Shown in pieces: positions 6,681 to 57,906 of a stretch of DNA of 64,000 bases. A program made the position numbers and the translations under genes. The first letter of the stretch is position 1; each line of letters opens with the position of its first letter. The notes beneath the pieces were generated by a model. That model did not search any database. It was not told the origin of the DNA and saw nothing but the letters and a program-made list of their open reading frames with translations. The DNA is taken from contig JAQYUZ010000032.1 in the NCBI GenBank assembly GCA_033819885.1, positions 62,001-126,000 of the forward strand. The letters run 5' to 3'. This DNA is from Microbotryomycetes sp. JL201 (taxonomy: Eukaryota; Basidiomycota; Microbotryomycetes).

Positions 6681-9600
6681 ATGAGCAATGGGGTTGCCGT
6701 TGCTGGCTCGTCGGTGTCCGGTCCTGCTGCTCTGAAGCAGACTGCGCTCGGTTTTGACCAAGTGCAACCGGCCGCGTACATCGCCACGCTCAACGATGCA
6801 CAGCGCAAAGCTGTCACCGCACCACGCGACGGATGCTTTCAGATCTTGGCCGGACCAGGCAGTGGTGCGTAGCGTCTGCTCCAGAGGCGACGACAAGCCG
6901 CGCAGCTTGGCCTGCTCGTACAACCTCGTGCTCGAGCGCTGACGACAAAGCGCGTGACGGTGCAGGCAAGACAAAGGTGTTGACATCGCGCGTGGCATAC
7001 TTGCTGCAGCACTACCAGGTAGACCCGGCCGACATGATGTGAGATGACCGCACCGGCGCCACTCGATTCTGTACTGACACCGCCCGTCCCGACTACTCAT
7101 CATCAGCGTCGTCACATTCACAAACAAGGTGGGCGCTTGCTTGAAAGCGTGGTCGGACCGCGAAAGCTCAACCTCACACTGTTGCAAGGCTGCAAACGAG
7201 ATGAGGCTCCGACTTACTCACTTGGTCGGCGCCAAACTCGTCGACAAACTCATGATGGGCACATTGTGAGACTAGGCTGAACGGAACGCATAGTCTAGTG
7301 GTCGCTCTGACAGGTTGACTAACAGTCATAGCGTCTGTGTGCGATGTCAGTCTCCATGCCGCCATCGTCGATGCCAACATCTCTGCTGATTGCCCGAGTA
7401 ACAGACCTGCGCAAGTACGGCAAACTCATGGGGCTTTCGAACAATTTTGTCATTGCCGACCGCGAAGACTGGCAAGCCAGCTCACTCACTGTGCATGTGA
7501 CCCTCGCCTCTGACCTGCCGTCATCTCAGTCTCAACATGATCAAAAGAGCCGTCACAGCCACTGACATGACGCCGGAACTCAAAGCCAAACTCAAACCAA
7601 ACAAACTGTCCGATATCATTTCACAGTGCAAATCCAAGCAAGTTTCGCCGGAAATGTACCGAGCTCAAGCCGCCATTATGGACACGCGAGAGTCTGCAGA
7701 GAGCATGGAAGCAATCCATCGCGTCTATGTGTGCGTCGTACCTTGATAACGCGCTTCAACACTGCGATTGACAGGCTCTTTTCAGCGAGTATCAACAGGA
7801 ACTCGAACGCAATAACGCATTAGATTTCGACGACTTGCTTCTTCAGGGGTGAGATAGCACGCTTACAGCTCGCAACCCTCATTTGACAAACCCATACGTG
7901 GATCTTGTCAGACTGGAACTTTTTGAACGCTTTCCGAAGATCGTCAGCAAAATCCGTTGCGTCTTGATCGATGAAGTCAGTGTGCTGTAGACGGAGACTC
8001 GAAATGGAGGCTCAAAGCATATGTCGTAGTTCCAGGATACTAATTCGACGCAGTACACCTTGGTCAAACTGATGGCCCGAGCCAACAAAGCCTTGACTAT
8101 CGTCGGAGACCCAGACCAATCAAGTAAGCCCGAATGTTGTTTCCAGTGTTTTGACACTGAGCGACGGTCGCAGTATATGGGTGGAGAAATGCAGATATCG
8201 AAAATCTAGTCAAGATGAGCCAAGGTTAATCGGAATTGTTCTGCGGTCGCTGCTCGGATTTCAAACTAATCCTTTGGCTCAAAGACTTCAAACCAGTGCA
8301 ACAGATATATCTTGAACAAAATTACCGGTCGACCGCCGCGATTTTGGGCGCGGCTTTGGCTGTTGTGCGGCAAGGTAAGCAGCGACTGATGCAGGAAAAA
8401 GAAACTCTGCAGCTCATTGATTCACGCCAGACGCGAAGCGAGTGAACAAAGGTCTCAAAGCGACACATACGTCTGGCTCTTCAGTTGTTGTTCACCATGC
8501 GCCGTCAGCATTTGACGAAGCCCAGTTCATCGCCGCGCAGATCAAACAAATCACCGCACACGCCGGAGGCTTGATTGACTTTGGCGACATTGCCGTCTTG
8601 CTGCGATATGGAGCTTTGTCACGAAACATTGAAGTCGCCTTTCAGAAGGAGAGTATACCGCATCGCGTCGTTGGCGGTCACAAGTTTTTCGACCGGGTCG
8701 AGTGAGTCGTGTTTGTTCGGTCGAAGCTTGACTGAGCTAGGGTTGCCATGAACAGAGTCAAAGATATGATATCTTACCTTCAACTCGCGGACAATCCGAC
8801 CTATTCGGCGGCCTTCCATCGTGTCGTTAACTCACCCAAGCGAGGTTTTGGCGAAAAGACTGTCAAGGACATTGAACAAGCGGCTCGAACTCGAAAGTTG
8901 TCGTTGCTCGATATTTGCGTCAAGCTTGCCGCCGGCCAATCATTCATTCCTCTGACATCGTTGCAACGCAACAATTTGAAGCAATTCGTCCAAGTGGTTT
9001 TAGATGTCCAGAAACTGGCTGAGGATGGCACAAACGTGCCAGAATTGATTTCAAAAGTTGTCGAGCTGACGTTGTACGAAGCGTATCTCGAAAGAACATA
9101 CGGTCCGGACGCGAAAGAGCGGATGCTCAACATCGAAGAGCTAAAGGTGGGCTCTGATTAGGCTGTCCTTGGTCGCAACTGAATCAATGCCATGTTCAAG
9201 TCTTTTGCCGAGATTGTCGGGGAGGAGCGCGCCGAAGGACTTGCGGATGACGCAGAGCTCGAAGCGATGATGGAGCCGGTCGACGTGGCCGCAGTCGATT
9301 CGGCAAACAGAAGCTTGCGTCCGGTGGTCTACGGCACGCGCGTGGTTACCGCCGGTGCAGATCAAGACAATGAGTTGCCGTCAGTCCTGTTCTCGCATCT
9401 CAAATAGCCGACACTGATAGGGGTCGGTCGAACAGTGACCTGTTTCCGGCCTCTCAGTCCACCGAAAACCCTTTACGGACATTTCTGGCAATGTCGATGC
9501 TTGCTACGGACACGACTTCAGATTCCGCGAATGTCAACGACGCTGCAAAGAGCAAAGTCACTATCACGACGGTTCATGCCGCCAAAGGCCTGGAATGGCC

Positions 9601-11167
9601 TGTCGTTTTTGTTCCGGCTTGCGAGAGTGGTGCGCGATATTTGGGCCATTGTAGCGCGTACGCTCGTTGACATGGCTTGTCAGGCGTCTTTCCTTTCTAT
9701 CGGGCAGAAAAATCGGACCAAGTGGACGAAGAGAGGTGCGCACACCTTTTAAAGAAGCTGCGAGGAACGCACACGTGACATCATGCGCGAGCAGGCGGCT
9801 TCTATACGTCGCAATCACCCGGGCCAAAGTTTTGTGCACGCTGACACACAGTGCTACTCGGATGGCTGGAGGTGAGCGGCGCTAGAGCTTTCGAAACGAC
9901 CGTGTACTCAGGGCCACCGCATTCCTGCAGCCAAAACCTCATCGCGAGAGGTCTCCCCGTTCATCAAACCTGTCGCAGAAAAGTATCCGACGCTCTTCGT
10001 AAAACGACTTCAAAAGATTGGCCCGAAGCAGAGGAAAGAATTTGCACGCGTGTTGGACAGACCAGCACCTGACGAGCAAGTGGCCGCACGTATGATTGCG
10101 GATTAGTACGTGTGACGGCTACGAAAAAGCATCGGCTCGGAAGCTGATATGCTTGACACAGCGAGTCTTCACTTCCCGAGAATCCACCAACTTACGAATA
10201 CGACCCCAAAGCCGGCACGCAATCGCCGACACATACGTACGACAGCTCGGGAGGCTTTCAGCAGAACCGGTACGGCCGGCCTAGTGCCGGACCTCGAGCT
10301 ATTCCTCAAGGCGCAAAAGGGTTTTCGTCAGCTCTGTCCAGGTTTCGCGAAGCTGGCTCTGGCGGAAACTCTTTTGGGTCTGCGACAGCTTTCCGACCTG
10401 TCGCATCAAAAGCATTTGCCTCGAGCCCGTCGTTCAGCAACGCTGGCTTTGGCTCAAAACAGCTTTCTGGCCCAAGCCCGCCACACGCTGGACATTTCAG
10501 CGGAAGTAGCATTCCGCTCGCGCCATCCCACTCTGCACACTCCCAAGGCGCGATCGACGACTTGCCTGCGCCTCCGCCCCGTCAACCTTTCCCACCAATG
10601 AGAGCGAACGCCCGCAATCAAAACCGAGCATTCAGACCGCCGCGGATGGGAGGCACGGCGACGACGAGACCGAGCGCGCCCCTCGGCACTCCAATCGAAC
10701 TCGACTCGACTACACAAGTCGATGACGAAGAAGAATCTGATGCCCAACAAACTGCAGTAGACATGACCGCCCGGATAACGGCAGGTCAAACCATTCTGCA
10801 GCCGCCAACTGTCACTCGGCAACAATCACAATCTCCACAACGTCATCAACCGAAATCACCAACCGTTTCATTACCGAAACTTGACCCGCAAGGTTTGCCG
10901 AACGTGCCTGAAACGAGATCGTCTCGAATCGCAGATGCTGTACTCGTCAACCCTCGAGGTGATTTCGAAGGTGTGCCTTCAGATTTACTTGAAAGGTGGA
11001 CCAAAGGTGAAAAGAAGCGATTTCTGGACGCTTTTCAAGGTGTTTCTGGTATCAGCAGCAAGACTGATGACAATCAGGCACAAGAAGAAGAGATGCCGAG
11101 TAGTGACTCTGTCATTGTTGTTGAACAAGTTCCATCTTTGCGCCACAAACGTGGTAAACTCGGCTAA
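6681..11167 (+). CDS. SRS2: UvrD/SRS2-like superfamily I 3'-5' DNA helicase
   Basis: DNA helicase related to yeast Srs2, which strips Rad51 filaments. The ATG at 6681 gives a short leader, then LNDAQRKAV (Q motif) and the Walker A region GPGSGKT split by an intron. Next come VVTFTNKAANEMR (Ia), LIDEFQDTNSTQY (II, split by an intron whose acceptor is at the TAG before TTC CAG), VGDPDQSIYGWR (III), EQNYRS (IV), ITTVHAAKGLEW (V) and RRLLYVAITRAK (VI). After the motor domain comes a long Ser/Gly/Pro-rich tail (from about 10200) ending DAFQGVSG and an acidic segment, like the regulatory C-terminus of Srs2. The first 3 kb hold many tiny exons while the last 0.9 kb is one open exon. Orthology to SRS2 rather than another fungal UvrD paralogue is inferred from this tail and the motif set. 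Confidence 0.85.
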
Positions 11168-11285: not shown

Positions 11286-14200
11286 TTACGTCAGGTTGTC
11301 GTCAACGTCCAATTTGATGTTTAATCCCGCATGTTCTCGTCCGAATTTGAGCTGAATGTCCAAGAGATGCTGCAACCTATTTTGCTCGATAAACTGTCGA
11401 CATTTGACCAAACTAATGTCGGGCGGCTTGACGATACGTAACGAGTTGAGCAAGACGTTGACATCTTTCAAAGTTGGATTGGTCATGTCGACGGACCATA
11501 AAGTCGCTCCTGTCAGGGTAGCAGTGCGACTATCGACGTCCATCGCAGCCAAATCCGACGTGCCCATCAACTTGGCAGAAGAAGAGCTCGAAGAGGACAT
11601 TGACACGCGCACGTTGCACTCGTCGAAACGAGGGTCCCTCGATATCGTATCGAGTTGCTTTTCGACAGCGACGAGCTTTGTCGAAACTTGTAAATGAGCA
11701 GAGTCAACGTACGCCTCTTTGGCAGATCGAGCAAACAAGACGTCCAATCCTTCAAACACGCCGTCAAAACCACCTCTCAAATCGACTTGACCGACTTCAC
11801 GCTGTATGGCCTTGATTTTCGACTTGAAGACGTACACGCCTCCGATTGGTCCACGGATCTCGAGACCTGAAGCAAGTTTCGGTTTGCCCAATTCTCTGTC
11901 GCTCGTCGACAACGACCCGACTCTTCTGTAGACGTTCAAGCTAAACTCGTTGAAAGCCTCACCGACTACCGAGTCTGGCTGAATCCTAAGGTGATTCGTC
12001 ATTTTGCCAAACAAATGAATCGACCAAGACGTTTCGACAATCTGTTTGAGCTCGTCCAAAGCGTGTTGGCGACCATTCGTCATGCTCTTGACCAACTCGT
12101 GACTCGTGATCCAATTTTTAGGGTACAAGACATGACTTGGTACAATCGTAAAACCGTTCAATTCAAGTTGTCGTCGCCTTTGTTTGACGCCTGTCGTGAT
12201 CGCTCTAGGACCGACGCAATTGAAACAATCTGGTTTATAGGTTGACGAGAACGCTTGCTCCATAATGTCTTTGAACAAAGTCCAACCTTTGCGGAATCGC
12301 ATGACGCCTGGTGCGAGGTACGTCCCGTCTTCGTCCAACGTCCAATCGAGGTCAGGGCCGTATGTAGACTGGTCCGCACCGATGAATTCGAGATTTGAAT
12401 CCGGAGGCGCACGTACCCACGGCGCATCCATGTCCAAGTCTACAAACACCGACTCGTCAGAAACTGTCGGTCTCTTGTCTCCGAAATCCTCAGGCGCTCA
12501 CAAGTACCGCCAAACTTGAACAAGAACAGATAGCGCAAATAGTCGGTCAGGTGCGAGTAGCTATTAAGCATCGCCAAGCAAGTCAGCTTCACTCGCGCCC
12601 GTCTCGACCCTGGTAACTGACAAGAATTGGCCCTTGGACCACTGATCCCATTCTGTCAACCACCGTTGACTGTTCGGACCCAAATACCATCCATTGTATA
12701 ACAATTCCGGACCCCCAATTCTGACGACGTGTACAGCGAACCCGTGCTTGGTGTAGTCTTTGAAAAAATCGAGCGGCAACGTTGTCGACATCATAAAGAT
12801 GATCGCTCTTGGTTCGTGAGCCCAGATCGATTCCAAAGCTTGATAGTGTCGTTCCTGGAATGTGTCTTGAGAAGTTGTCCAACACATCATGTGCAATAAA
12901 TGCCAGTCATCGGTCTGTGAGAACGTTGAAGTGTGTCGAGATAGCAATCCTGGAACGACCCAAGGGTCGTCCGCTGATCCAATCACGAAGGGTGAAGGAG
13001 GCGTCTTGACCGGTGCCTCAAGCGTAGCCTGGTGCGAGCTCGGCTTGCTGGACAATGTCGCACCTTTGATCTCGTCGCAAGCAAAGCCCCAGTCGCGCCA
13101 ATGATTGTCTCTCGATCGACAAGAAGGATAACAGACGCCGCACCACTTCTGAAGAGCTCCTTGACAGGGTTTGCGACCACTGACGATGTTTTCGTACATG
13201 TCTCGCATGCCGAATCCGTTCGGCTCTTTGTACTGACCACCAAAGTGCTTGGCAATCATGTCATTCTCGCACACTTGAGCCTGCTGGATCCGATGGTCGT
13301 GAATCGGTCGGATGCCAGTAGGGTACAACCATAATCCGAGATTTTGGTCTTCGTTCATGACAAACAGCCTCGATGCGTCGGGTGGTGCGATCAATGACAC
13401 GAGGTCGCGAGACAAAATGTGCAACGCGCCGGCCGTGTATGGCGGAAATGACGACAGCTCGTACGCAAAATCGGCGTTCTTGTTGGAAGCATCTTTAATT
13501 GCCGGAATTTCCCTGTGTCCGGTCCAAAAAGGTCAATTCCGGCTCGGGCTTGTGCCTCATTGGTCATTCGTCTCACCAGTAGGCAAACCCTCTCCAATAC
13601 TCTCTCCTCCTTCCTAGCGCGACAAATTCTTTCGACAACACGTCCATCCTCAACAATATGTCGTCGTCCGTTTTGAGCACGTAATCGACATCGAGTTGAC
13701 CGGCCCATTTCCAACCCTCGTATATTTTCCGACTCAAATCAGCGTATCCGTCATGAGCGGGCACGATCAACATGTCGTGAAACTCGTCCGTCTCTTTTTG
13801 AATCTCTGGACCCATCTTGCTCGCCGTCTGCGGAGACGGCGCCGAGCCCAACAAGAACCGGTACGTGATCGAGATTGATTTGGTCGACTGTGGTATGAGC
13901 AGCACGCTCGATTCACGGAACGCTCGCCTGTTCGACATTGATCTGTTTGTCCAGGAAGAGGTGACGAGTATGACGACACGGACGTTGGCCTCTCTGTCCA
14001 AATCTGTCAAACTCAGACCGTTGATGCCACCGACTCCGACGATCGTGTCCAGTTTGGGTCCACCAAGCGAGACTCCCCCTCCACCATGATACCTCGCACT
14101 GAATTGTTGCCACAACAACAATATCGTCGTGATCCATCCGAGCAAGGCGAATGGCGCGACTGTGCCCCAAACGACGCGTTTCCAACTGAGAGCTCTTTCA

Positions 14201-15682
14201 CCTTTGCGATACTTTTCAGTACGAACACCTGGTCCAACAACGACCGACAAAAAATTGGAGATGAACGGGTATTGCTGGTGACCTTTGCGATCTTTTTTCT
14301 CTACAATGTTGCTCGTGACCCAGATCTGGATCACGTTCTGCGACAGAGATCCAAGCAATTAGCGTTGAGCCATCTGGGCTAGACATGCAGCTATTGAAAG
14401 GGACTGACCGAAAATGCCGCTGTCGTTGCGCACACGAACCAGGCCGCAACCGGCTGGTCCCACGAGAAGAAGCGATGTGTCGTCAACGTCAGAGGCCAGC
14501 AGATCGCTTGCAGACTGAGAGCCCTGATGATTGTCGGTAGCCTCGAATAGTACACGAGCCACCTTCTGAGAAGACCCTTCGCCAGCTGGTGACTAAAGTA
14601 GGCGCACGCCAAGGCCCACATGCCTGCAATGAACCAATCGAGCTTGGTGCTCCTAGCCTGGGCTACTCCGACCGCTTTTCCGCCGTCTGTCCAGGTTTTG
14701 GACGTGTCGAGCAACAGAGTTGAAGGTGAATGAAACCTAAAAGCGGCGTAGGCGAATCCGAGTAACGATGGCATGACTGACAACGATTGTAGCAAGAATA
14801 GGATCGCGCTCGAGCGCTTGGAGCGGGGAAATGCAGAGTTCGACGGTTTTGTAGCCGTCGCAGTGGTCGGCAAGCTTGGCTGCAGGAAGGGAAGAAGAGT
14901 CAATGCCGAATCATCAGCACTCGCCGGTCAGCACGGACTGCGGATGGATGACCGTCTTCAGCGTCTCGAGTGCTAGTCCTAGATCTAGCCATTTTGTGCT
15001 CCGAGCCAGTCGTTGAGCGCCGATACACGTTTGAGGTTGTGAGGATCGGAGGCGATATGGGCTCCAAAGGGACGATCCCCTGCGGGTTTCTCCGCCTCCG
15101 TCTGATTTCCAAGGGTGTATCGTCGGCGTCGAGGCCACTCGCTTCTCTTTGTGTCGTCGTATTAGGCTCTCCAGTGGGCGATTCAAAGTCGTCCCAGGCG
15201 GCGACGTCCGGCGGCAAGTCGGCTTGACCTAACGTCGATGCGACCGCCAATGGAAGTGAGCTTGACGATGAGCGAGAGTGAATGCGAGGTCGAAGCTCAT
15301 GCTCTGTTGGCCATTGCGATTGCAGTGCAGGAGGAAATTGGCGCGAGGCGTACTCGAATGTTTGCGAATACGATGGTTGATGCGACGGTTGGGACTGCCG
15401 AAAAGGAAGAGAAGACGATGCCAAGGTTGATCTTGATGCGACAGACGGAAGGGCCGTGCTCGTGAACGAGAGATTAGGCAAATGAGGCACAGAATGCGAT
15501 CTGGGTGGCGAGAAGGGCGCTGTGTAGGACGAACTTGCGTAGCTCGGGGGCGGGGCGTGCAGGTCTACAAAAGATAGTGCCGGTGATGTGTTGGCAGACG
15601 GTGCCCGAGGCGGTGGCCCTTGCGCAGACTCGTCAATGCTCGCCCGGGACGATCGCCGCTTGACGGTCCGAACTGGCGCCAC
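11286..15682 (-). CDS. EOS1-like membrane domain fused to GT31 and GT32 glycosyltransferase domains
   Basis: Large predicted ER/Golgi membrane glycosyltransferase. The order is: disordered Ser/Pro-rich N-terminus (15682-14900); a multi-pass domain resembling fungal EOS1 (VMPSLLGFAY, LLRRWLVYYS, IIRALSLQAI, then IQIWVTSNIV after an intron); a transmembrane helix near 14130; a GT31 (beta-1,3-galactosyltransferase-type) domain with ESSVLLIPQ, YADLSRKIYEGWKWA and the DXD motif KTDDD; and a GT32 (Gly_transf_sug) domain with HLTDYLRYLFLFKFGGTYLDMD, which spans introns. Two exons prove the joins: 14358-13573 carries both the EOS1 end and the GT31 start, and 13424-12564 carries both the GT31 end and the GT32 start. 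The reading frame opens after a TAG without an ATG, so a short first exon probably lies at about 15700-15850. Acceptor substrate is unknown. Confidence 0.78.
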
Positions 15683-16259
15683 GATGCTCGGATCCTAGCT
15701 GAGTAGATAGATGTCACTCCCTGAATGCCAAAAAAAAGCTGCGACGAAATGTCAGCACTGTTGCAACGCGCTGGTCGCTGGCCGCTAGTTGAACATTTCG
15801 AGGCCAGTCACGTCCATGCATTCTCGTTCAGGCGGTGAATGAGGCTCGGATGGGTCACTTAGCAGCAATCAAGCCACTTGCGCTTGCCTATGACCTCGTG
15901 CGAACCGTGCGTGTCCGTCGAACGCGAGCGAGTCGCAACGCGTCAAAGACGCCGCCGCTGTTCCCGAGTCGTGCTGAGGCAAGCATGGTTGACGACTGGT
16001 GCGCTGCACCTCTCAAACCAGTCGCTAGCGGCTCAAGGACTCACGCAAGGCTAGAAGGAGCTCGTGCTCGCCAGAACGGCAGCCGGCTAAATTCGCGAGC
16101 GCTCGCAGGGATATCATGCTCGTCGGCATTCTGGACATTCCGAGTATTTTTTTGAAGATGTTCTGTTTGGTCTCGGGTATAACTTTCATACATGAAATGG
16201 CGATTGCCCCCAATATCCCACTTCCTTTCTACAAATGCGAGTCTCCTCGTACCCAGTCC
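15683..16259. other. Intergenic, with probable 5' exon and promoter of the EOS1-GT gene
   Basis: 577 bp between the open frame of the EOS1-GT31-GT32 gene and the stop of the VanZ-like gene, both on the minus strand. A plausible 3' splice site (ACTCAGCTAG) sits just upstream of the open frame at about 15695, and minus-strand ATGs occur at about 15810, but I cannot fix the first exon. No other gene is recognised. Confidence 0.4.
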
Positions 16260-20418: not shown

Positions 20419-23201
20419 ATGAAGGGTTTGACGCTCAACACGTCACTCGTATCGTCTGTGGGCAGCAGCAGCTACAGCTATGGTCAGGGCGGTGGTTCAT
20501 CCGCCGCTTCGTCGAGATCAAATTCACCATCGTCAGCTAGTGGACCACTGCTTGAACAGCATGTTTCAACTGCACCGATTTCAATGACCTCGATGATGGC
20601 GAATTACGGTTCACCTTCACGTCAAGGCGGTTCCTCTTACACTCGACTTGATGCGAACGACAATGACCATTTGAACATGGGTCCAGCATGGAATGATCAC
20701 GCTCAGAGCCATCACAATCGAAAGAAGAGTACGATATCATTGCTGCCTTGGTCAACGCGTTCTAAACAGGCACCTTTTACCCGTTCCCCGTGGAATTGTG
20801 GCGTTGGAGCAGCAGCGACGAGTTCTCTTCACGGCTCAAAGCGTAACAAATTAGTATGGGTCACAGGCGCGACTATGTTTATATTCATTGTTTTGCTCGT
20901 TTACTCGGGTCATTCAACTGTCACTCGCGGCGATGTGACATTAACGGGGGATCAGTTTGTTGGTGATCCTCTGGCCGACCAGACAAACTCGCCTCTGACG
21001 ACAACTGGGACATCTATATCTTCATCTTCATCTTCATCGAGATTGGAAGCGATCAAACAATACTGGAACGAGTGGTGGAAAGCCAGTCAGACAGTAAAAG
21101 AGGTAGAGGAAGAGACGTACGGACGAGAAGCGCCGGGAGAAGCAGAGAGCGTCGAAGATGTTCTGACACAAGCAGCTGAAGACGACGTTGATGAACAAAG
21201 CGAAAGTGGTCAAAATACCGCTCAAGAACAAGGAGTTTCAGAAGGCAACGCAGATCAAGACGCAGTGGATGCCGACGACCACGATGTGGACGAGGTCGTA
21301 GAAGCGCAAGTGCCAGGCTCGGGTGCTGCCGCGGTACCAGCCCAAGTAGACGGGAATGAAAATGGCAGAATCGACAGTCCGGTCTCAACCGGAGCTGAAT
21401 CAAGTCAGAAGGAAAGCAATCCGCTTAACATACGACCGACTTTGCGATTGCCACCTACCGACCCGGCAAAAGCCAGTCAAATGCGCTACGTCGCTTACGA
21501 AAGCCACTCTGGGTTTCACAATCGTACGTTTCCGAGCATTTGAGACTTGATTGAACAGCTCACAAATCCACGTCTCGTGTACACGGACAGAACGCAAGGC
21601 GCTCGTCAATGCTCTGCTTGTATCTCGCATGCTCAACCGGACTCTGCTCTTACCGCCTGTTCGACTAGGTCATGCCATCTCTTGGGATCCTCACCTCGAC
21701 CAGCTCGTCCCATTGCACGAACGGTGCAAAGCCGATGCCGCGCTGAGACTAGCGTCTGACGAATGCGCCAACGTTCCTGGGCCAAATAAATGGACTTATG
21801 TCGACTGGTCTTATATCATGCCTAAGTCGTTGTTCAACGAGTACTCGATTGTGGATCGGTGGAACGATTCTACGGCTTGGTGGACGAGCGAACCGTCTCA
21901 AGGCGGCCTCGGCTTGCAAGATTACGACGAACAAGTATTCCACTTTCAAGACGATGACAGGTACTCTTACCAATTCTACGACAGTATTCAAACGAAAACG
22001 AGTTTGGGAAGGTTTCATCAGCGATTGAACGTCGACACGTTGTTGCACGACAACCGGTTCAAAGACAAGAGAGTCTTACATTTCGGAAGCTTGTTTGGAG
22101 GTGACAGAGTCAAAGCCGGTTTATCCGACACTTTGCAAGAGTGGCAGAGGATCAATGAGGCGATGGTCTTTGAGATCAAAGGAATCGACGAGATGAGCGA
22201 ACAGGTCAAAAACAGACTGGGTTCGTACGTTGGTGTACATTGCCGCGTTGGAGACATGTTTTTCAAAGTCAGTCGGCCTGTGTCTACGAACAAGAGTGTG
22301 CCATGTGTGCTGAAAAAGCTCTCTGGTTTGCAGAACAAGGCCAAGCCAAATATGCAAGCCGTGTTTCGCAAACTGTCAAAGACGGTTTTTGGTCTCAAGC
22401 AAAAACGTATCATGCAACTTTTGGAGCAGACTGAAGCAAGCTTGAAGCAACAGCGAAAGGGCGGTCGACATCGGCGGTGGACCAGGCGACTGAGGGCGAA
22501 ACTGGCTTGGACGTACCATGATGACGTTCAAGACGAAGCCGACGATGTATATACTGTTCGTTCTCTGCCAGTCTTGCTCAAACGCGCCACGAGCTCAAGC
22601 AACTCGCTCAACGTCGAGAGACCCATGTCTTCGAGCCTTTCGTGTCGCAAACCTCTTCACACCGACCCAGAACTCTTGCCGCTCAACAAACCCTTGTACA
22701 TGGCAACAGACTCTCGAGACGCAATCAGGGATCCAAACCTGAAGCCGTTCTTTGATCACTTTCCTTGCATTTTCTTGTTGGACGACTTTGCTACGGAATC
22801 GACCGTTAATAAAGAACCTGTTGTCGAGTTGGCCGAATTGATGAAAGGCAATGGGTGGACGAGCGATTGGGACGGTCAATCGTGAGTCTCGTCATTTCTC
22901 GTCTCTGGGATAATCTCACCCATCTGTGGGATTGATTGAGTGGTGCCGAGAGTTGACCTGAGACTTTCGGACAGGTTATCAACATACATATTGCCTTTTC
23001 TTGAAGCAGAAATTGCGGCAAAAGCGGATGCCGCAGTCGGAAGTGAGTATGTTTGAGCTTATCACGTGGAATGTCGCACTGATCCAAGCGCCGATGAAAA
23101 ACTCGTTTCCAGCTGTCGGATCAACGTTCTCGGGCTACGCGACGGTCACGCTTCATGAAGCATATCACAAATCGGGCAAGACGGCCAGCGCTGCCGAATA
23201 A
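20419..23201 (+). CDS. O-fucosyltransferase-like type II membrane protein
   Basis: Predicted Golgi or ER glycosyltransferase related to GDP-fucose protein O-fucosyltransferases. A cytosolic Ser-rich N-terminus (about 145 residues) is followed by one membrane anchor (LVWVTGATMFIFIVLLVYSG), then an acidic, Gln/Glu-rich stem. The catalytic region begins YVAYESHSGFHN, continues after an intron with RKALVNALLVSRMLNRTLLLPP, and holds YVGVHCRVGD (the HxRxGD-type motif with the conserved Arg) and LYMATDSRDA (TDS motif). The last exon ends with VGSTFSGYATVTLHEAYH, the family's usual C-terminal block. A basic insertion (KGGRHRRWTRRLRAK) interrupts the domain. Donor sugar is inferred from family only; related basidiomycete proteins are often labelled proteophosphoglycan-like. 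Confidence 0.75.
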
Positions 23202-39889: not shown

Positions 39890-42245
39890 TCAATCAAACA
39901 CTTTCAGGCCTTGAAAACTCTCATGAGCCAAAGCCTTCTTCATGACGCCGACCGGATCAATCTTGGCCTTTGTGTCCGCAACTCGACTGTCTGTGCCGTC
40001 CTTTGCCACCTCGAGCCACTCCTCGTCGGCCGCGTCACCGACGTGTCCCTCGAGAAAGACTTTGATGAGAGCAGCAGAATAGCCCGACACGAGCGCAACA
40101 CCTTGATCATTCGAAGTTACGGGCTTGCTGTTTGTGTCTGGCCTGGCAGCCAAATTCCAGTACACGATCTGAGGCAACTCGTACCCCGCGTCTGCAAACT
40201 CTTGCTTGACAATCTCGTGATGAGTCGCGTACCCGTCGACTGTGCGTTGTTCGGCCTGCCACAGACCGAAAGAGAGTGAGCAGAGTCCCCAGGATAGAAG
40301 AAGAAGACACACGGCATCGAATTCCATGTCTGAAAACACGTAGACGAGTCGAGGCATGTCGTCTAGAGCCAACTTGGCATCAACAGCTCTTTGCAAGACT
40401 GTGCGCAACGTCTTGACAAAGTCAGTGTTCAAGCCCATTCCTTTCGTTTGAATCGCCTCAATATCGTCCTTGAGCGACGTCCTTGGCAGATCGATGAAGT
40501 GAGGGTTTCGACTGAACGAGATGACACTGTTTGACCAAGGTGCGCGCGTGACGCTCGCGACGAGAATCGTCAAACCCAAACTCGAATCAATCGGCGTCGT
40601 CCTGTCATGCAAGGTCGGTACCATCATCGATCCAGACACGTCAGCGACGGCAATGCAGGATGACAATGTGCCCATATCCTGAATGCTCGAGACGAGTGTT
40701 TTCCACTGCGCTTCGACAACTTCGAGCATCACATCGCTCTTGTCGAGCCTTGATGCCTGCTTGACCAGAATACCTGGAGCCAGAGTCGCTCCACTGATTG
40801 TCTTGGCACCCTTGCTGACTTCGGTCAAGTAGGCGAGGAAGCCATCGTGATCGTGCAGCGCGAACGCCTTCTTGTGCTGATTCATTGCAAGCGACGGCAC
40901 ACGGCTGTACTCGATCTCTTGCCATTCATTGCTCGACATGCGACGCTCGACGACCTCGAGGTGAGCACGTAGCGGCCCAAGGTACCGGATGCGGTACCGA
41001 GCAAGAGCTCGCGCAGTCGATTTTGCCGTATGCAAACCGTTCGAGGGCGGAGTCAAATATGCGGCCAGCGTGGCCGTGATGCCCGTATGTTGATCATGCG
41101 CGTTGTTCTCAGTTGGAGCCCACTTTGCAGCGAGCGAGATCTTGTTTGACATCTTGCGCGCCTCGTCGTACTTGCCTTCGGCCTTGAGTTTTCGGTGCTC
41201 GTCAAGGGCCCTCAAGTCATTACGCAACTGCTCGCCAAAGATGCGCACGATCGTTGCTTGGAGAGCCTGAACGAGAGGCCGTGCCTCTCTGTTGAACCCC
41301 ACTGGATCGGGCTTATCGAGCTCGGCGGCGATCGCATACGTCTTGGCCGTCTGCTTGCGGAAACGCTTGACGCGGTAAGGCGATTTTCTGTCGAATGCGA
41401 ACCCTGGCAAACGCGAAAAGTCTCCGTCTACATCAAACTCGGTTTGGCTGTCCGTCTTGGCCGTCTTGAGTGAGGCGAGCCACAAGAGGTTGAGCAGGTC
41501 GCGAAAGACGCCGTGCGAGCGAGCCGTAGAAGGGGTCAAAGTCTGCTCTTGCAAAGGTCGCATGTCTTCACTGTTCTCGACTTGAACTGTACCGTCATCC
41601 TCGTCGCCATCATCGACGTCTTGCGCCTTGCGCTTTTGAGGAATCTTGTCGACGGGCTTGACAATTTCGTCGAGGTTGCGTAAAAAGGTTTGCGGATGAG
41701 CCTGGCTCAACCAAGCCATTGCTCTGGTCCATGCTTCGCGTTCTCCCTTGCCACGCGGGATCGAGCGGCTGGCCCAAATGATCTGTGGTTGAGGGGAGAA
41801 GTCAGTACTCGGGCGCGCGCGAGACGACAAGCAGGACTCTTTCCACACTTGCCTTGAGGGTCAGCAGGCTGTCTTCTTGCCATGCATTCTCCAGCAATTT
41901 CTTTAAATTTGCCTTTTTGACTGAATCGAGCTCGTTGTACAGTTCAAGCGTAGGAGATAAAACGGTGAGGTTGGTCACTCCACAGTTGTCCGTGAGGGTC
42001 AAATTGCTCGTGTGCGCTGTGGCCGCCTTCGGTGGTGCGTGCACATTGAGCTCAGCGGGGCCTCGCAGCGCGTCATACAAAGGATTCGGTCCCGAGACTG
42101 GTAACGCAGCCGGAGCATCCGATGGACTCGTTTTACGCTCAATGGGCTTGAGAGAAGCCAGTAGCGAATTGTACTCGGCGTCAGACGTCAATCCGAGGTC
42201 GAACAAAACCGTGCGCGCGGCCGTGTGGGGCGCCGCCGGGGACAT
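39890..42245 (-). CDS. DUF2828 protein with von Willebrand A-type domain
   Basis: Cytosolic protein of unknown role with the DUF2828 architecture. The first exon runs from MSPAAPHTAARTVLFDLG to LENAWQEDSLLTLK. It splices to IIWASRSIPRGKGEREAWTRAMAWLSQAHPQTFL, the hallmark segment of the family (trypanosome-to-plant TROVE/VWA-like proteins). The C-terminal half holds CIAVADVSGSMMVP, an intact DxSGS metal-ion site, and VYVFSDMEFDA. A further exon carries the end, KKALAHESFQGLKVFD. An in-frame ATG at 42428 would add a 61-residue Arg/Ser-rich leader; I prefer 42245. Relation to RNA-binding Ro60-type proteins is only by fold. Confidence 0.8.
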
Positions 42246-48653: not shown

Positions 48654-50834
48654 TCACGTCTTGACTGACATGGCAAACAGCCCGACGCACAAAGCTGTCA
48701 GCAGACTGAAAAGTTGCAGCAAGTCGCTCGTAGACCACGCGTGCCGCTTGATATCAAGCTGCTTCGTCTTCTGGCGCTGCTGCAAGCTCGCCCTTTCCAC
48801 GTCAGACCATGGTGCTGGCATCTTGAAATCGTCAAGAATTTGCTCAGATGTGATGCGACCTCCGGCGAGGCAGATAGGTACACTGAAGGTCAGAAAGTGT
48901 CGACGAGTCAGATTCAATAGAACTTGCTTTGCGAGCAAGAGGCGTACCCAGTACCAGGGTGCGTAGATGCGCCGACAAAGTAAGCCCGCGAAACAGATGG
49001 ATGCCTCGTTTTCGGCCTGAAAGCTAGCACATTACTGGAACAACCACGAGAGTCAGCCAAGAGAGCATCGTTCTCGGTCGATAGCTACTCACAAAAAACT
49101 GTGCGACAGACCGAGAATAGAACCCCTGTGCAAGTTGTACGTGTCTCGCCAGGTGATGGGCGTGTTGATCTGCTCATCGATAATGTGAGACTCAAAGTCT
49201 GGGAGATCGAGCTGCTTTGATATCCGGTCAATAACGAGTTGGCGTGCAGACTTGACGATCGCGTTCCAGTTGCTCGACGACGGCAGCTTGTCCGAAATGT
49301 CTGAGAGCAAAAGTTGCATCAGCAGTGTCACCACTCTAGCGCAGCTAATGCTCACGTCCAACAGGCACCAGCACTATAACGGCGTCTTTGCCTTCTGGTG
49401 CAGCCCTGCGGTGCATGGAAAGTGTTAGCCGGGTCACGCTTTTTTGAGTCGCAGACTTGCGTCGGATCGACATGTGTCGGCTTGTTGACGTAGAATGAAG
49501 GCTCTTTCGGAATCGAATGTTCTCTGAAGATTGAATCAAAAGATCTTCGACCCAGCTCGTCAGCTTGTACAACTGTTTCTGCCGGGCGAGACATGACTCA
49601 CTCGCGATACTCGTCGGCGAGAAAGATGGTATGGCTTCCCAGCTCTGGAACGATCCTAGCGGAAGAGTCAGTTGGTTGTTGCGCCAGCACGCGTAGGCCC
49701 TCACTTGTCCATCGACCAATAGAACGAGATAGACGAGCAGCTGACTGGTTTGTTGGCAAGTCTCTTGGCGTACGATGTTGGCTCAAACAAGTTGTTCAAA
49801 CTCCAAATCAAGTCGGCATTGATGACGACAATGTCGGCCGTGAGCTCTTCGCCGTTGCCAAGCACCACGCCTTTAGCTGTTTTGCCATCCTCCGACAGCA
49901 GTACACGTTGAACGGACGTCGACATGCGGAATTTTGCACCTTTGCGTTCTGCTACTTTGGCGAGAGCGGCGAGCACGGTCTGAAAGCCGCCGAGAGGGTA
50001 CCAGATGCCTTCTGCTAGCTCGGTGTATTGTAGCAACGAGTAGGTCGCGAGAGCGTCGAATGGCGACATTCCCTGCAACTTGCATGTCAGCGCGATTGGA
50101 TGACGTGGCCTGTTTCTGGAACAACTTGCCAAGTACATTGCCGCAAACGTAAACGCTCTTCGCAGGCGGTCTGTTTGGAAGTACCGAGACGCACGAGAAT
50201 ACTGTAGGTGGTTGAAGTAAGCGTGAAGCCATTTGCATGTGCAATTCGAGCCTACGATTGACTCGAACGGGTGCAGTGTCAACAAGTCTTTGAGCAGCAC
50301 CGGTCTGAGCATAGAGAGCAAGGACGTAAAGTTCTTGTGCAACACGTGCACGTAGCTCAGCTCGTAATGCACGTGAGCCTCTCTCAAGAACTCGAGGTAC
50401 CTGCAGACAGATCTCTTCAGCATTTTGTTATCGAAGCCCCCCGCGGATTGGCGTTTGGCGACGGACCTGGCAAAGCCTTGTTCACCCTCAAACCGCTCGA
50501 CTTCCTTCTTCATCGTAGCTAGATCAGAACTTAATTGAATGCGCTCCGAGTCGCCAAAGAAGACGTGGTAATTTGGGTCGCATCGAACGAGCTCGATTCC
50601 CTCGTCCTGCATCGACGTGCCCACGTCTGTGAACGCTTGTTCAAACAATCGAGGCAAGAGCAGCAGAGATGGGCCGACATCGAACCTGTAGCCCTTGTTG
50701 GTGTGCAAGAGCGAGCATCGACCGCCAACTTCAGCGTGCTGCTCGACGACAGTCACGTCAAACCCAGCGTGAGCGAGGCGACATGCTGCAGACACGCCAC
50801 CTGCACCTGCGCCGACAACGATCGCACTGGGCAT
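48654..50834 (-). CDS. crtI: Phytoene desaturase (CrtI type)
   Basis: FAD-dependent desaturase introducing double bonds into phytoene towards lycopene, membrane-associated. The start at 50834 reads MPSAIVVGAGAGGVSAACRLAHAGFDVTVVEQHAEVGGRC, the Rossmann dinucleotide fold. Exon 1 runs to SISFYWSMDK. Short exons then give IVPELGSHTIFLADEYR, SFDSIFREHSIPKEPSFYVNKPTHVDPT, AAPEGKDAVIVLVPVG, the long block ending INTPITWRDTYNLHRGSILGLSHSF, and LCFRPKTRHPSVSRAYFVGASTHPGTGVPLVL, the carotenoid-desaturase signature. The C-terminus has a hydrophobic helix (LLQLFSLLTALCVGLFAMSV). Fungal Al-1/CarB enzymes have this layout. A TCACGTGA octamer lies 77 bp upstream. Confidence 0.93.
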
Positions 50835-51160
50835 GACGGTCGACGGGCGCGAGACGCTCGAGGCCGAACTGAAACGTGAAAACCAAACGGCGATCGCGAT
50901 CGGCGCAGCGTCACGTGACTTTACCCCTTGGTAACATAACCTTGGAACAGACGTAAAATGGTGATGGATGCATTAACAGATTCATAGTGAGCGGAAAAGC
51001 TACAACTTGAAATCACTAAACGGGGGAAATTAAAGGGTTTTTTAAACGGCAAAACGTAGAGAAAGAGACAAGTCCCTTTTGCTGCACGGTCAAACAGACC
51101 TTCCAGGAAGACGGAGCCAGGTAAAAAGAGGGAGGATGTGGGTGCGTGAGAAAGGCGGGT
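50835..51160. promoter_or_regulatory. Promoter of crtI, 3' end of opsin gene
   Basis: 326 bp. A TCACGTGA palindrome is at 50911-50918 and GCGATCGCGATCG is just beside it. The first holds an E-box; GATC repeats recall light-responsive elements bound by White collar-type GATA factors, which is only inference. Confidence 0.4.
50911..50918. promoter_or_regulatory. TCACGTGA palindrome upstream of crtI
   Basis: Perfect octamer 77 bp before the crtI start (minus strand). E-box-type core; role inferred. Confidence 0.3.
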
Positions 51161-53228: not shown

Positions 53229-55301
53229 CTATGCAGCCATGGCCCTCCATACCGTCTTTACCCTGTCCCATGAACTGACACCTGCTCGGCCGGAAATGTC
53301 ATCGTTTGCCATGGCTCTGTCGACAGCGTCAGCAATCGACATGTACAAGTCTGTCGCACTCTTCATGCCGCCTTGAACGTCCCGAGGCAGCATATCAATA
53401 CCTCTTCTGCTACCGCTTGCCAAATGTCGGGCCATTCGGATCAATCTCTTCCGCTCTGCTGTGGCACATTCCAAACCGCTGTCCAAACGTGCAACACTAA
53501 GCGTTGGTAGGTACACTCGTCTTATGTCGTAATCCGATGGCACGTCTCGAGCAATGTTGGTTAATTGCAACGCCTGTCCCATCTTGCGCGCCGCTTCAAT
53601 GACCTCTTGTCGTTGTTGCGAAGACAATAAGCAACCGTAGTGATGCCAAACGAGCTGACAGCACAAGTCCGCGACAGAAGATGCCACGTTTGAAGCGTAC
53701 TTGAGCACGTCTTTATCCTCAGGGAACGCCACTGCATCTGGCGCGAGGTCCTCAAAGGCGGCATCGGTTTCGAAACCGTCGATGAGCTCGTCAAGAGGCC
53801 CTCTTGAGATGGGCAGTCCGGCCAAAAGGAAAAATGAGGATCGTTGCGCAGGCGGGACTTTGGGAAGCAGAGTTGAAATTTGTTTGCGATCGGGCCGGCT
53901 TTCGCGATCAAATACAAGATTGAGATACCGCCTCAGCAGCTTGATGGCGTCATTTGCATCACAGTCGTTGCTGGGCTCGTCAATCATGTCGTCAACCACT
54001 CGACACCATGCATAAAGTACGAGCAGGTCAAGCTTCAGACGTCCTTCAAATAAGATTGATCCGGCATAGAAGGATTTTGATTTGGCTTGAAGGAGATCAA
54101 CACATTGTGCCAGATCGCCGATTGTCTCGTGTGGCAAATCTCGAGGGTCCATGGTGACCGTTCTGGCCAGCGACGAAATCGTCGGCCTTGCAGCGTTCTC
54201 AGAGACATCATGCACTGCAAGACAGTAGTCGCTGCAGGTCGGATTTAGCATCAATTGGCTAGGACGAAAGCCCGAGACGAACCATGCGACCATGCCGAAC
54301 ACGACGAGCATATTTGTCAAGAGAAAGAAGACAGCCTCTCTGCCAATCAAGCGAATAAGCTGAAGCCGTGAGCGTTGACTCATACGGTTGCTACTTACTC
54401 AATCTCGAGGCCATACAGGGCCAGTCCGAGCTTGGTTCCCTGCTCGATGACCCAAGTACCTCTCCGAAGAGCACAACTGTCGCAAATCCACAGATATACA
54501 GTCGGGATTGCAACGCTGACAGACACGTGCTTCCACAGAGATAGAATATGACTCGATGCGACGGCCCTAAAGAGCGCTTGTCAGCAAGGACTCAATCCAC
54601 TCACATCAACCGCCTTACCAGAGCAAAGCCAAGAAAGGAAAAGACCAGGCGACAATCAAGCACATGTATGTCCACTTGCCGCCATGACTGATGGATTGGA
54701 AAGCATATGCGGCAATCGCAAGCAGCAGCGCTCCTCCAACTAGCCGTATTGTGACCGCTCGGGTTGCTTTTTTGCTGTTTCGAGGGAGATGCAAAGCATG
54801 AATGACTGGCTTTGTAGCGATTGTGTACAAATTTGCTGTGATATATGTCTGGATGAAGAAGAAGAATACTTCCTCCAGTGGGATGTCGAACAGTGTCGGT
54901 CCTATTGTTGAAGAGTCGGGATATGACCAGATCTGCACCGCATTTGGCGTTGGCTCGCGTCTCGACTGATTGGCTGTGTTTCCTCACCTTGTTGCGAATG
55001 AGATACGAGTCCCATGGAATAGTGGATGCAATGGCAATCTGCAAACACCAAAGTTCAACTGGCTTCGCGTCGCGACCAGTGGCATGTCATGCCTCTGCGA
55101 CGTACGACACACAACGCAAACGTCTTGTACACATCACGCCGTGTCCTGAAGCGCCTCCATCCGACCCACAAGCACAGCGCAGGCGGGATTGTCCACCTCA
55201 AGTGCCTGTGCACGTGATCAAGAGCGGGTTAGTGAATGATCAATGCACGTTGGCGTCCTCTCGAAGATAACTTGCACTTGAGCATAATCGGTGCCGCCCA
55301 T
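53229..55301 (-). CDS. crtYB: Bifunctional lycopene cyclase/phytoene synthase
   Basis: Fungal-type fusion making phytoene from geranylgeranyl diphosphate and cyclising lycopene to beta-carotene. The ATG at 55301 gives MGGTDYAQV, and a GC-AG intron (55206-55275) joins it to [13 protein letters not shown]. Cyclase-domain motifs follow: [26 protein letters not shown] (repeat 1), and [15 protein letters not shown] (repeat 2), each in membrane helices. The synthase half has [25 protein letters not shown] (first Asp-rich DxxxD), GYxxG-equivalent around [12 protein letters not shown], and [20 protein letters not shown] (second Asp-rich motif). The end is [12 protein letters not shown]. Both catalytic halves look intact. 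It shares a divergent promoter with the dioxygenase gene. Confidence 0.94.
55206..55275 (-). other. GC-AG intron of crtYB
   Basis: 70-nt intron. The exon before ends CAAGT and the intron starts GCAAGT, a good GC-type donor; the acceptor is GTGCACAG. This join yields YAQVHLRW, aligning with the conserved YYQ(I/V)HL start of fungal CrtYB. No GT donor keeps that frame. Confidence 0.75.
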
Positions 55302-55626: not shown

Positions 55627-57906
55627 ATGACGACCTGCAGGCCGAACGATTCGGGCCCGAGCTCAGCAGCAGTCGACGACCAGTCACAGCTCACGTCTAC
55701 GCCTGTCGTCGACGTCCACGAACCAATACCACACACAGCATCAAATGGTGAAATGGTGAAAGCGAGACACCCGTACCGCACGGGCAACTATGCGCCGGTT
55801 TCGACGGAGCGTACTCTGACGCCATGCGTCTGCGAAGGATCTTTGCCGTCAGAACTCGCAGGAGGGTGAGTCTACATGGCGGCAGCACACCACAGAAGGA
55901 CGAGTGCTCACATGTTGCAACTCATGGAGTAGCATGTACGTCAGAAACGGCGCAAATCCGATTGCAAACGCAGACGATCGGCCGTATCACTGGGTACGCA
56001 CATGGAACGGCCGCCAAGTCCAGGTCTTGAAAACACTGACAGCGGCGTATTCACTCCTTCCAGTTCGATGGCGATGGGATGCTCCAGGGCGTCTACTTCG
56101 TAAAAGTCGGACAAACATGTCAACCGCTCTTTGTCAATCGGCACGTCCTGACAGATGTATTGCTGGCCACACCTCAAGACGCGTCTCTGCCCATCATCCC
56201 ATCAATTTCCACGTTGCTTGGACCGCTGCAGCAGCTTCCGGCCGTCGTGGCTGCAATCACTCGGGCGGTGGCGTTGTCAGCCTTGTCCTACGCATTCAAG
56301 ACGAGACAAGCCGTCCAACGAATATCCGTCGCCAACACTGCCGTCACTTTCCACGATGGAAGAGCTCTTGCGACTTGTGAAAGCGGGCCAATGGCCTGGT
56401 TTCGATTGCCCTCGCTCGAAACAGTTGGATGGTGGGACCTCGGAGACGAGAACGAGCCAGGGTTGAGGGACCGCAATGGACCGCTCGGCTTCATGAAGGA
56501 GTGGACTACCGCGCACGTGAGTAGATCGCCTCGTTCCCGCTTTGCAGCGTCTCACGAACACCTTATTACAGCCGAAACGAGATCCAGAAACGAACGAGCT
56601 CGTCTTGTACCATTCCTTAATGCTGCCACCATACCTAAGCTATTCTGTAGTGCCAGCCCGCGATGCCAAGTATCCGACAAAGCGCATCATCGGCGAGCCC
56701 GTGCCAATTCGTAAGTTTGCACACTCCTTGCTGTTGAGCGCGTCTGACCCAGAACATTGCCATCTCAGCTGGTCCGCGCATGATGCACGATTTTGCCGCT
56801 AGTCACACTCACACTGTCATCATCGATACTCCACTCTCTCTAGACCCTCTCAACCTTGCGCGAGGGATTCCGATCGTGTCGTTTTCTCCGGATGTGCCTG
56901 CCCGATTCGGTATCTTTCCGCGACACGATTCTGCTTCGGTACGCTGGTTCAATGCGCCCAGTTGTGTCATTTTCCATACAGCTTGCGCCTACAACTCGCC
57001 CAGCCAAGATTTCGAAGGTGAACAAGACGTCAACGTCATCTGTTGTCGGTTAAATTCGTCGCGACTCGTTTACGCCGCAGGCAACCTCGCGATGCCTTCA
57101 ACAGAATACAGCACAGACCAAGATACTTGCATGCTGTACTACTACCAGTTCGGTCTCGCTCGGTCAGCCAAATCTGAAGCAAGTCGATCGTTTGCGCTGT
57201 CGACGATCCCGTTCGAATTTCCGACAGTGTCGTTCAAGCATTCGATGAGCGGTCCACATTATGTATACGGCTGCTCAATGAAGCAAGGCTCGTTCAGCGC
57301 GGCTCTAGGGTCGGCAGCAAAGATTGACTGTCTCGTCAAAATCAACGTTGCCTCGCTCGTCAAGCAGGGACTCGCGCGAGGGCTTGGTCCTGAAGACGCC
57401 GTCGATACTCGAACGGTCATCGAGATTTTGGAGCAACAGTCTGACTTGAAGTCTTCGTCGGATGTTTTAGTGTTTCCTCTCCCGCACGGATGGTATGCGC
57501 AAGAGAGTTCGTTCGTGCCGAGGCGCGATGCGGCGTCCGAGGATGACGGGTGGCTGTTGACGTATGTGTTTGACGAGAGTCAGTTGGACGAGCAAGGAGA
57601 GGCTTTGCCGAACGCCAGATCCGAGTTGTGGGTCATTGATGCGAGGACGATGAATAAAGTGGTCGCGAAAGTCAAGTTGCCACAACGCGGTAAGTTTTAC
57701 GACGTGTCTGGAGCACGTTCGGCCTCTGACGCTTATTCGTAATGACAGTCCCGTACGGATTACATGGAAACTGGTTCACCGAAGCCGAGATCAACTCGCA
57801 GCGACCCGTGCCGGCTTCTGGCGTGCGGCGAAAGCCTGAAAAGTCGGACGCCAAATTGACTTGGACGGAGGAGGTTGCGGGATTTTTGATGAAGCTTATT
57901 GCATAA
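55627..57906 (+). CDS. Carotenoid cleavage dioxygenase (retinal-forming type)
   Basis: Fe(II) oxygenase of the RPE65/carotenoid oxygenase family, probably cleaving beta-carotene to retinal. From MTTCRPNDSG, exon 1 ends at LAGG and joins MYVRNGANPIANADDRPYHW, then FDGDGMLQGVYF, the family start. Iron-binding His occur in MMHDFAASHTHTVI, FHTACAYNSP, and GLHGNWFTEAE (last exon), with GPLGFMKEWTTAHPKRDP carrying the first. The protein is about 670 residues, close to Fusarium CarX and Ustilago Cco1. An insertion-like segment RSEASRSFALSTIP is present. Function by cluster context: an opsin and crtYB/crtI are adjacent, so a retinal product is likely, not proved. Confidence 0.9.

Follow-up and report, generated by a model that had tools for sequence, protein, structure and literature searches.

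What does a protein do that joins an EOS1-type membrane domain to two glycosyltransferases (GTs) of different families? The question is raised by a single minus-strand gene in a stretch of 64,000 nucleotides from Microbotryomycetes sp. JL201 (contig JAQYUZ010000032.1, positions 62,001 to 126,000; hereafter the window). A preliminary description of this DNA had presented the gene as a triple fusion of EOS1, GT31 and GT32 domains, and this observation is confirmed here. After modelled splicing the domains lie in one continuous reading frame, in the order EOS1, GT31, GT32, and the recognised motifs of both transferases are intact. As to function, there is about an even chance that the protein is a secretory-pathway enzyme of the Ggt1 type, in which an EOS1 module anchors GT31 and GT32 domains that build the head group of glycosylinositol phosphorylceramide (GIPC).

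The gene model spans 15817-11286 and consists of seven exons, separated by six GT-AG introns, that encode 1371 residues; exons and domains are listed in Table 1. The spliced protein was searched against Pfam, and all four families of interest scored above their cut-offs: EOS1 (PF12326) with 137.2 bits (cut-off 23) over profile positions 2-163 of 163, Galactosyl_T (PF01762) with 72.7 bits (cut-off 23), Gly_transf_sug (PF04488) with 28.9 bits (cut-off 23; residues 950-997, E-value 1.9e-6, with a final intron of 62 nucleotides) and Gb3_synth (PF04572) with 32.2 bits (cut-off 22.3; residues 1036-1159, E-value 1.4e-7). Five of the seven exons were also scanned one by one, exons 1 (6 nucleotides) and 6 (59 nucleotides) being left aside and exon 7 being taken in the form that follows a 38-nucleotide intron. 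Exon 4 alone exceeded the cut-off for two families: EOS1, at profile positions 83-163 (1.7e-7), and Galactosyl_T, at positions 15-102 (1.6e-10). Because one uninterrupted exon matches both families, the fusion of EOS1 to GT31 is free of any splicing assumption. The peptides IQIWVTSNIV and KTDDD (13674-13660), previously noted as sharing an open exon, both lie in exon 4; the span 13573-14358 given earlier for that exon is its stop-to-stop open reading frame (ORF). Exon 5 alone matched the C-terminal half of GT31 (1.5e-6). The end of GT31 and the start of GT32 had likewise been assigned to one exon, and this stands for the spliced protein, in which the Gly_transf_sug match begins inside exon 5 at residue 950 (12677); it does not stand for the exon by itself, for which Pfam reported no GT32 family. 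The last exon alone, in its 38-nucleotide-intron form, matched Gb3_synth (2.7e-8).

The six introns measure 117, 41, 71, 64, 61 and 62 nucleotides. A YTRAY branch-type site is located 18-23 nucleotides before the 3' splice site in introns 2-6. No branch-type site was found near the 3' end of intron 1, and the gene start at 15817, reached through this intron, is tentative and little better than a guess, the 5' end being uncertain. Intron 2 may be 59 nucleotides long in place of 41; the choice falls in low-complexity sequence and leaves the domains unaffected. For splices 3, 4 and 5, where roughly 90-100 nucleotides were examined per splice and introns of 35-150 nucleotides were allowed, two, two and one in-frame GT-AG solutions were found, respectively, the modelled one included each time. 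The final intron (12501-12440) has four in-frame solutions. Its 62-nucleotide form is preferred over a 38-nucleotide form because it restores the DXD motif, the Gly_transf_sug score and a branch-type site together. It reads GGTYLDMD, gains 12 bits over the shorter form, has a CTGAC branch-type site 18 nucleotides from its end and resembles introns 3-5 in length (61-71 nucleotides); it was chosen partly for the resulting motif, which introduces a bias. The 38-nucleotide form was rejected: it reads GGTFSDES, in which the DXD is broken to DES, gives 16.8 bits for Gly_transf_sug, below cut-off, and has no YTRAY site. Codon usage was scored with a model trained on the other exons, exons 1 and 6 being omitted as too short. 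The assigned frame ranked top of six in all five exons tested; in exon 2 its score, the best of the six, was slightly negative and supports the frame weakly. The G+C content is 53-54%. The nearest downstream ORF lies on the plus strand, and 118 nucleotides separate its end (11167) from the stop of the gene; if this tail-to-tail ORF is a gene, further 3' exons are unlikely.

Mean Kyte-Doolittle hydropathy exceeded 1 in five of the 17 hydrophobic 19-residue segments listed, all five of which precede the GT31 domain. Four of them fall in the EOS1 domain and one lies before it, a pattern that, by hydropathy only, agrees with the multi-pass membrane character of the EOS1 family. Lysine plus arginine counts on alternate sides of the segments are 5, 4 and 11 (in 25, 13 and 49 residues) versus 5, 1 and 2 (in 38, 13 and 25 residues). 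These positive-inside counts favour a protein that starts in the cytosol, crosses the membrane in five helices and exposes its two GT domains to the lumen; the topology is a hydropathy estimate and not the output of a dedicated predictor. The N-terminal 280 residues or so appear low-complexity by eye and are probably disordered and cytosolic. The earlier proposal that a single protein holds two GT domains at the membrane agrees with the predicted segments and with the intact motifs of both domains.

In the GT31 domain the motifs DDD (residues 641-643) and ED (residues 725-726) were recognised. The best match of this domain in a phmmer search of the PDB was B3GALT6 (9sp7, 4.9e-14), and B3GALT5 (8zwp, 1.8e-9) was also found; in the alignments the two motifs lie opposite DDD and ED in B3GALT6, and opposite DSD and ED in B3GALT5. 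In the GT32-type domain the sequence GGTYLDMD, which depends on the 62-nucleotide final intron, has the usual GT32 form, GGxYxDxD. The last 208 residues are a possible extra domain. No significant PDB match was found for 204 of them (best E-value 0.14), and a single-sequence fold of the last 216 residues was uninformative, with a mean predicted local distance difference test (pLDDT) score of 30.9.

Two statements from the literature on the distribution of GT31 proteins are set beside these results. Beta-1,3-galactosyltransferase 6 is stated in PMC13161914 to be absent from Dikarya, which fits awkwardly here, B3GALT6 being the nearest solved relative of the GT31 domain. According to PMC5872309, the only surveyed pathogens in which GT31 homologues were found are filamentous fungi; this sits uneasily with PMC11150766, which reports three GT31 proteins, Ggt1-Ggt3, in Cryptococcus neoformans.

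Table 1. Features of the EOS1-GT31-GT32 gene (positions are those of the window).
Feature	Positions	Strand	Residues	Remarks
Exon 1	15817-15812	minus		6 nucleotides; exon and start codon tentative
Exon 2	15694-14921	minus		N-terminal region
Exon 3	14879-14409	minus		splice model
Exon 4	14337-13577	minus		end of EOS1 and first half of GT31
Exon 5	13512-12622	minus		rest of GT31; Gly_transf_sug match starts inside
Exon 6	12560-12502	minus		59 nucleotides
Exon 7	12439-11286	minus		last exon, bounds with the 62-nucleotide intron
N-terminal region	15694-14921	minus	3-260	no Pfam match
Hydrophobic segment upstream of EOS1 domain		minus	285-303	hydropathy
EOS1 domain	14642-14107	minus	340-494	PF12326, E-value 6.6e-40; split by intron 14408-14338
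Hydrophobic segments in EOS1 domain		minus	342-360, 374-392, 406-424, 474-492	hydropathy
GT31 (Galactosyl_T)	13887-13296	minus	568-743	PF01762, E-value 4.5e-20; split by intron 13576-13513
Cysteine-rich stretch between GT domains	13166-13077	minus	787-816	5 cysteines in 30 residues
GT32-type domain	12677-11925	minus	950-1159	extent by Pfam; GGTYLDMD at residues 985-992, across intron 12501-12440
C-terminal region	11912-11289	minus	1164-1371	last 208 residues; no Pfam match

If the protein is a Ggt1-type GIPC enzyme, its EOS1 membrane module (five helices including one upstream of the Pfam domain, N-terminus in the cytosol) would hold two GT-A domains in the lumen. By analogy, the GT31 domain would transfer beta-galactose onto the mannose of mannosyl-inositol-phosphoceramide (Man-IPC), and the GT32 domain, of Gb3 synthase type, might then add the next alpha-linked hexose onto that galactose. 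EOS1 would keep the enzyme, and perhaps also the lipid acceptor, at the membrane. Gb3 synthase adds an alpha-hexose onto the beta-galactose of a glycosphingolipid. Since this glycosphingolipid alpha-hexose transferase and the GT32 domain belong to one family, the latter is a natural candidate for adding the next sugar, and a lipid acceptor fits because Gb3 synthase acts on a glycosphingolipid. The fusion hints that in basidiomycetes another step in GIPC synthesis may be carried out by the same protein as the galactosyltransferase.

Ggt1 itself is described in PMC11150766, citing Wohlschlager et al., as a GT31 galactosyltransferase of basidiomycete GIPC sphingolipids that is widespread in Basidiomycota, and the activity expected of a member of the family is the transfer of beta-1,6-galactose onto Man-IPC. 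PMC11150766 gives Ggt1 a membrane region predicted by DeepLoc at 338-360, a Ggt2-like GT31 region at 434-645 and an unknown domain. On this published layout Ggt1 resembles the window protein in its GT31 domain, in a long stretch before the predicted membrane region and perhaps in having an extra domain. A search of the main text of that paper gave 0 occurrences each for EOS1 and GT32. From segment start to GT31 start there are 96 residues in Ggt1 and 94 here (474 to 568), the starts being defined differently. Ggt2 and Ggt3, unlike the window protein, are reported there as type II proteins with the membrane region near the N-terminus (35-57 and 21-43, respectively). By this analogy of layout, Ggt1 is a better counterpart of the window protein than either Ggt2 or Ggt3; the window protein is probably a relative of Ggt1 and may be its orthologue.

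Several points weigh against a Ggt1-type GIPC enzyme with two working domains. The likeness to Ggt1 is one of published layout, and for Ggt1's unknown domain it covers no more than its presence. According to PMC11150766, Ggt1 has no transmembrane domain except the predicted region at 338-360, as against five segments in the window protein. The GT32 proteins of C. neoformans listed in PMC12493134 (Och1, Hoc1-3 and Csg1) do not include Ggt1, and according to that paper Cgm2 (GT139), a beta-galactoside alpha-mannosyltransferase, may act in GIPC synthesis; a GT32 domain may therefore be absent from Ggt1, unrecognised there or otherwise employed. Sequence searches of the PDB revealed no relative of the GT32 domain, either with the 38-nucleotide model, which gave no match, or with the 62-nucleotide model, which gave only two antibody chains (E-values 0.3 and 0.9). 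A search for relatives with 829 residues of the 38-nucleotide-intron model found none in viral and prokaryote contigs (7 and 38 pattern matches, respectively, none confirmed by tblastn), as expected for a fungal gene.

Some of the same evidence would suit a Ggt1-type protein in which only GT31 works, the GT32-like part being binding, folding or regulatory and the next sugar being added by Cgm2 or another enzyme. The possible contribution of Cgm2 to GIPC synthesis and the omission of Ggt1 from the GT32 list (PMC12493134) point in that direction, and the Pfam scores on the GT32 side are modest; nevertheless, the DXD-type GGTYLDMD is present and both GT32-side families exceed their cut-offs. This alternative is rather unlikely. 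A two-site enzyme that assembles a different glycan in alternating or successive steps, whether N-linked, O-linked or an extracellular polysaccharide, is improbable. It corresponds to the polymerase or capping enzyme put forward in the preliminary description, and polymerases with two GT domains, one of them GT31, are known in animals (chondroitin synthase). The title of a paper in a reference list ties yeast EOS1 to N-glycosylation, and in C. neoformans the GT31 relative Ggt2 works on the side chain of a polysaccharide (PMC11150766). The layout, however, is like that of Ggt1, a lipid enzyme, and unlike that of the type II proteins Ggt2 and Ggt3 as published there, and no sign of iteration was seen. 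The polymerase idea is without specific support, and a non-iterative role in making a lipid head group fits better.

All of this presupposes one gene. The exon structure is a splice model derived from sequence alone, and such a model could merge two or more genes on the same strand. This is very improbable here: EOS1 and GT31 occupy one stop-free exon, another exon contains the last part of GT31 together with the point at which the GT32 match begins in the spliced protein, and few in-frame alternatives exist for splices 3, 4 and 5.

The Ggt1-type reading can be extended to a stronger claim, which is rather doubtful at present: Ggt1-type enzymes would be bifunctional synthases of the GIPC head group, EOS1 being a lipid-facing module that presents the acceptor to two lumenal sites in turn, and the EOS1 protein of yeast would be a free-standing module that partners separate GT32 mannosyltransferases. 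If true, a free-standing EOS1 with GT32 partners would explain the N-glycosylation and stress phenotypes in yeast. To our knowledge EOS1 has a deletion phenotype in yeast but no known mechanism. That it is fused here to two GTs, in what is probably an enzyme that glycosylates sphingolipids, provides a testable lead to its function, and the earlier suggestion that the gene holds a functional hint for EOS1 is supported. The questions raised are whether EOS1 binds glycolipid acceptors or presents them, and whether the yeast protein has a GT32 enzyme as its partner.

The surroundings of the gene were scanned with Pfam over 20 neighbouring ORFs, which gave mostly housekeeping-type matches or none. 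On the plus strand, an ORF at 9374-9667 matches a UvrD-type helicase C-terminal domain (3.3e-10) and is followed by a long ORF without a Pfam match (10157-11167); the two are possibly one helicase gene (9374-11167) convergent with the gene studied here. About 6 kb from the latter, the ORF 21551-22882 (plus strand) gives a weak match, below cut-off, to GDP-fucose protein O-fucosyltransferase (1.5e-4). A long uninterrupted ORF at 39893-41860 (minus strand) matches DUF2828 (5.3e-77) and DUF7788 (1.5e-65). Three further ORFs lie within about 8 kb and are likely a carotenoid gene cluster: an amine-oxidase-type flavin adenine dinucleotide (FAD) protein, possibly a phytoene desaturase (49704-50972, minus strand, 1.1e-18), a squalene/phytoene synthase (53232-54398, minus strand, 3.7e-40) and a carotenoid-oxygenase-type protein (56738-57739, plus strand, RPE65, 1.7e-57).

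Among known proteins, B3GALT6 and the other animal GT31 beta-1,3-galactosyltransferases share homology over about 180 residues with the GT31 domain, with the motif columns aligned; they are type II single-pass proteins that are not known to carry EOS1 or GT32. Gb3 synthase (A4GALT) and the GT32 DXD enzymes, whose Gb3_synth and Gly_transf_sug profiles and DXD-type motif (here GGTYLDMD) are found in the window protein, are stand-alone enzymes. Chondroitin synthase, an animal dual-domain enzyme, likewise has two GT domains of which one is GT31; its second domain is of a different family, it is not known to contain EOS1, and it polymerises. The EOS1 protein of Saccharomyces cerevisiae (YNL080C) belongs to PF12326, of which nearly the whole profile is matched by the window protein; no GT domains are known from the yeast protein. 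PMC8304579 tabulates a protein of Rhizoctonia solani (AG1IA_06882) as an 'EOS1 domain-containing protein'. Among the literature matches listed, from which most subscription journals are missing so that they are weak evidence of absence, EOS1 was not described in one protein with GT31 or GT32. The preliminary description held that no characterised protein resembles this gene, which is probably wrong, given the likeness in layout to Ggt1 as published in PMC11150766. The enzyme type itself has been reported as widespread in Basidiomycota; what is new is the domain make-up and its possible implication for EOS1.

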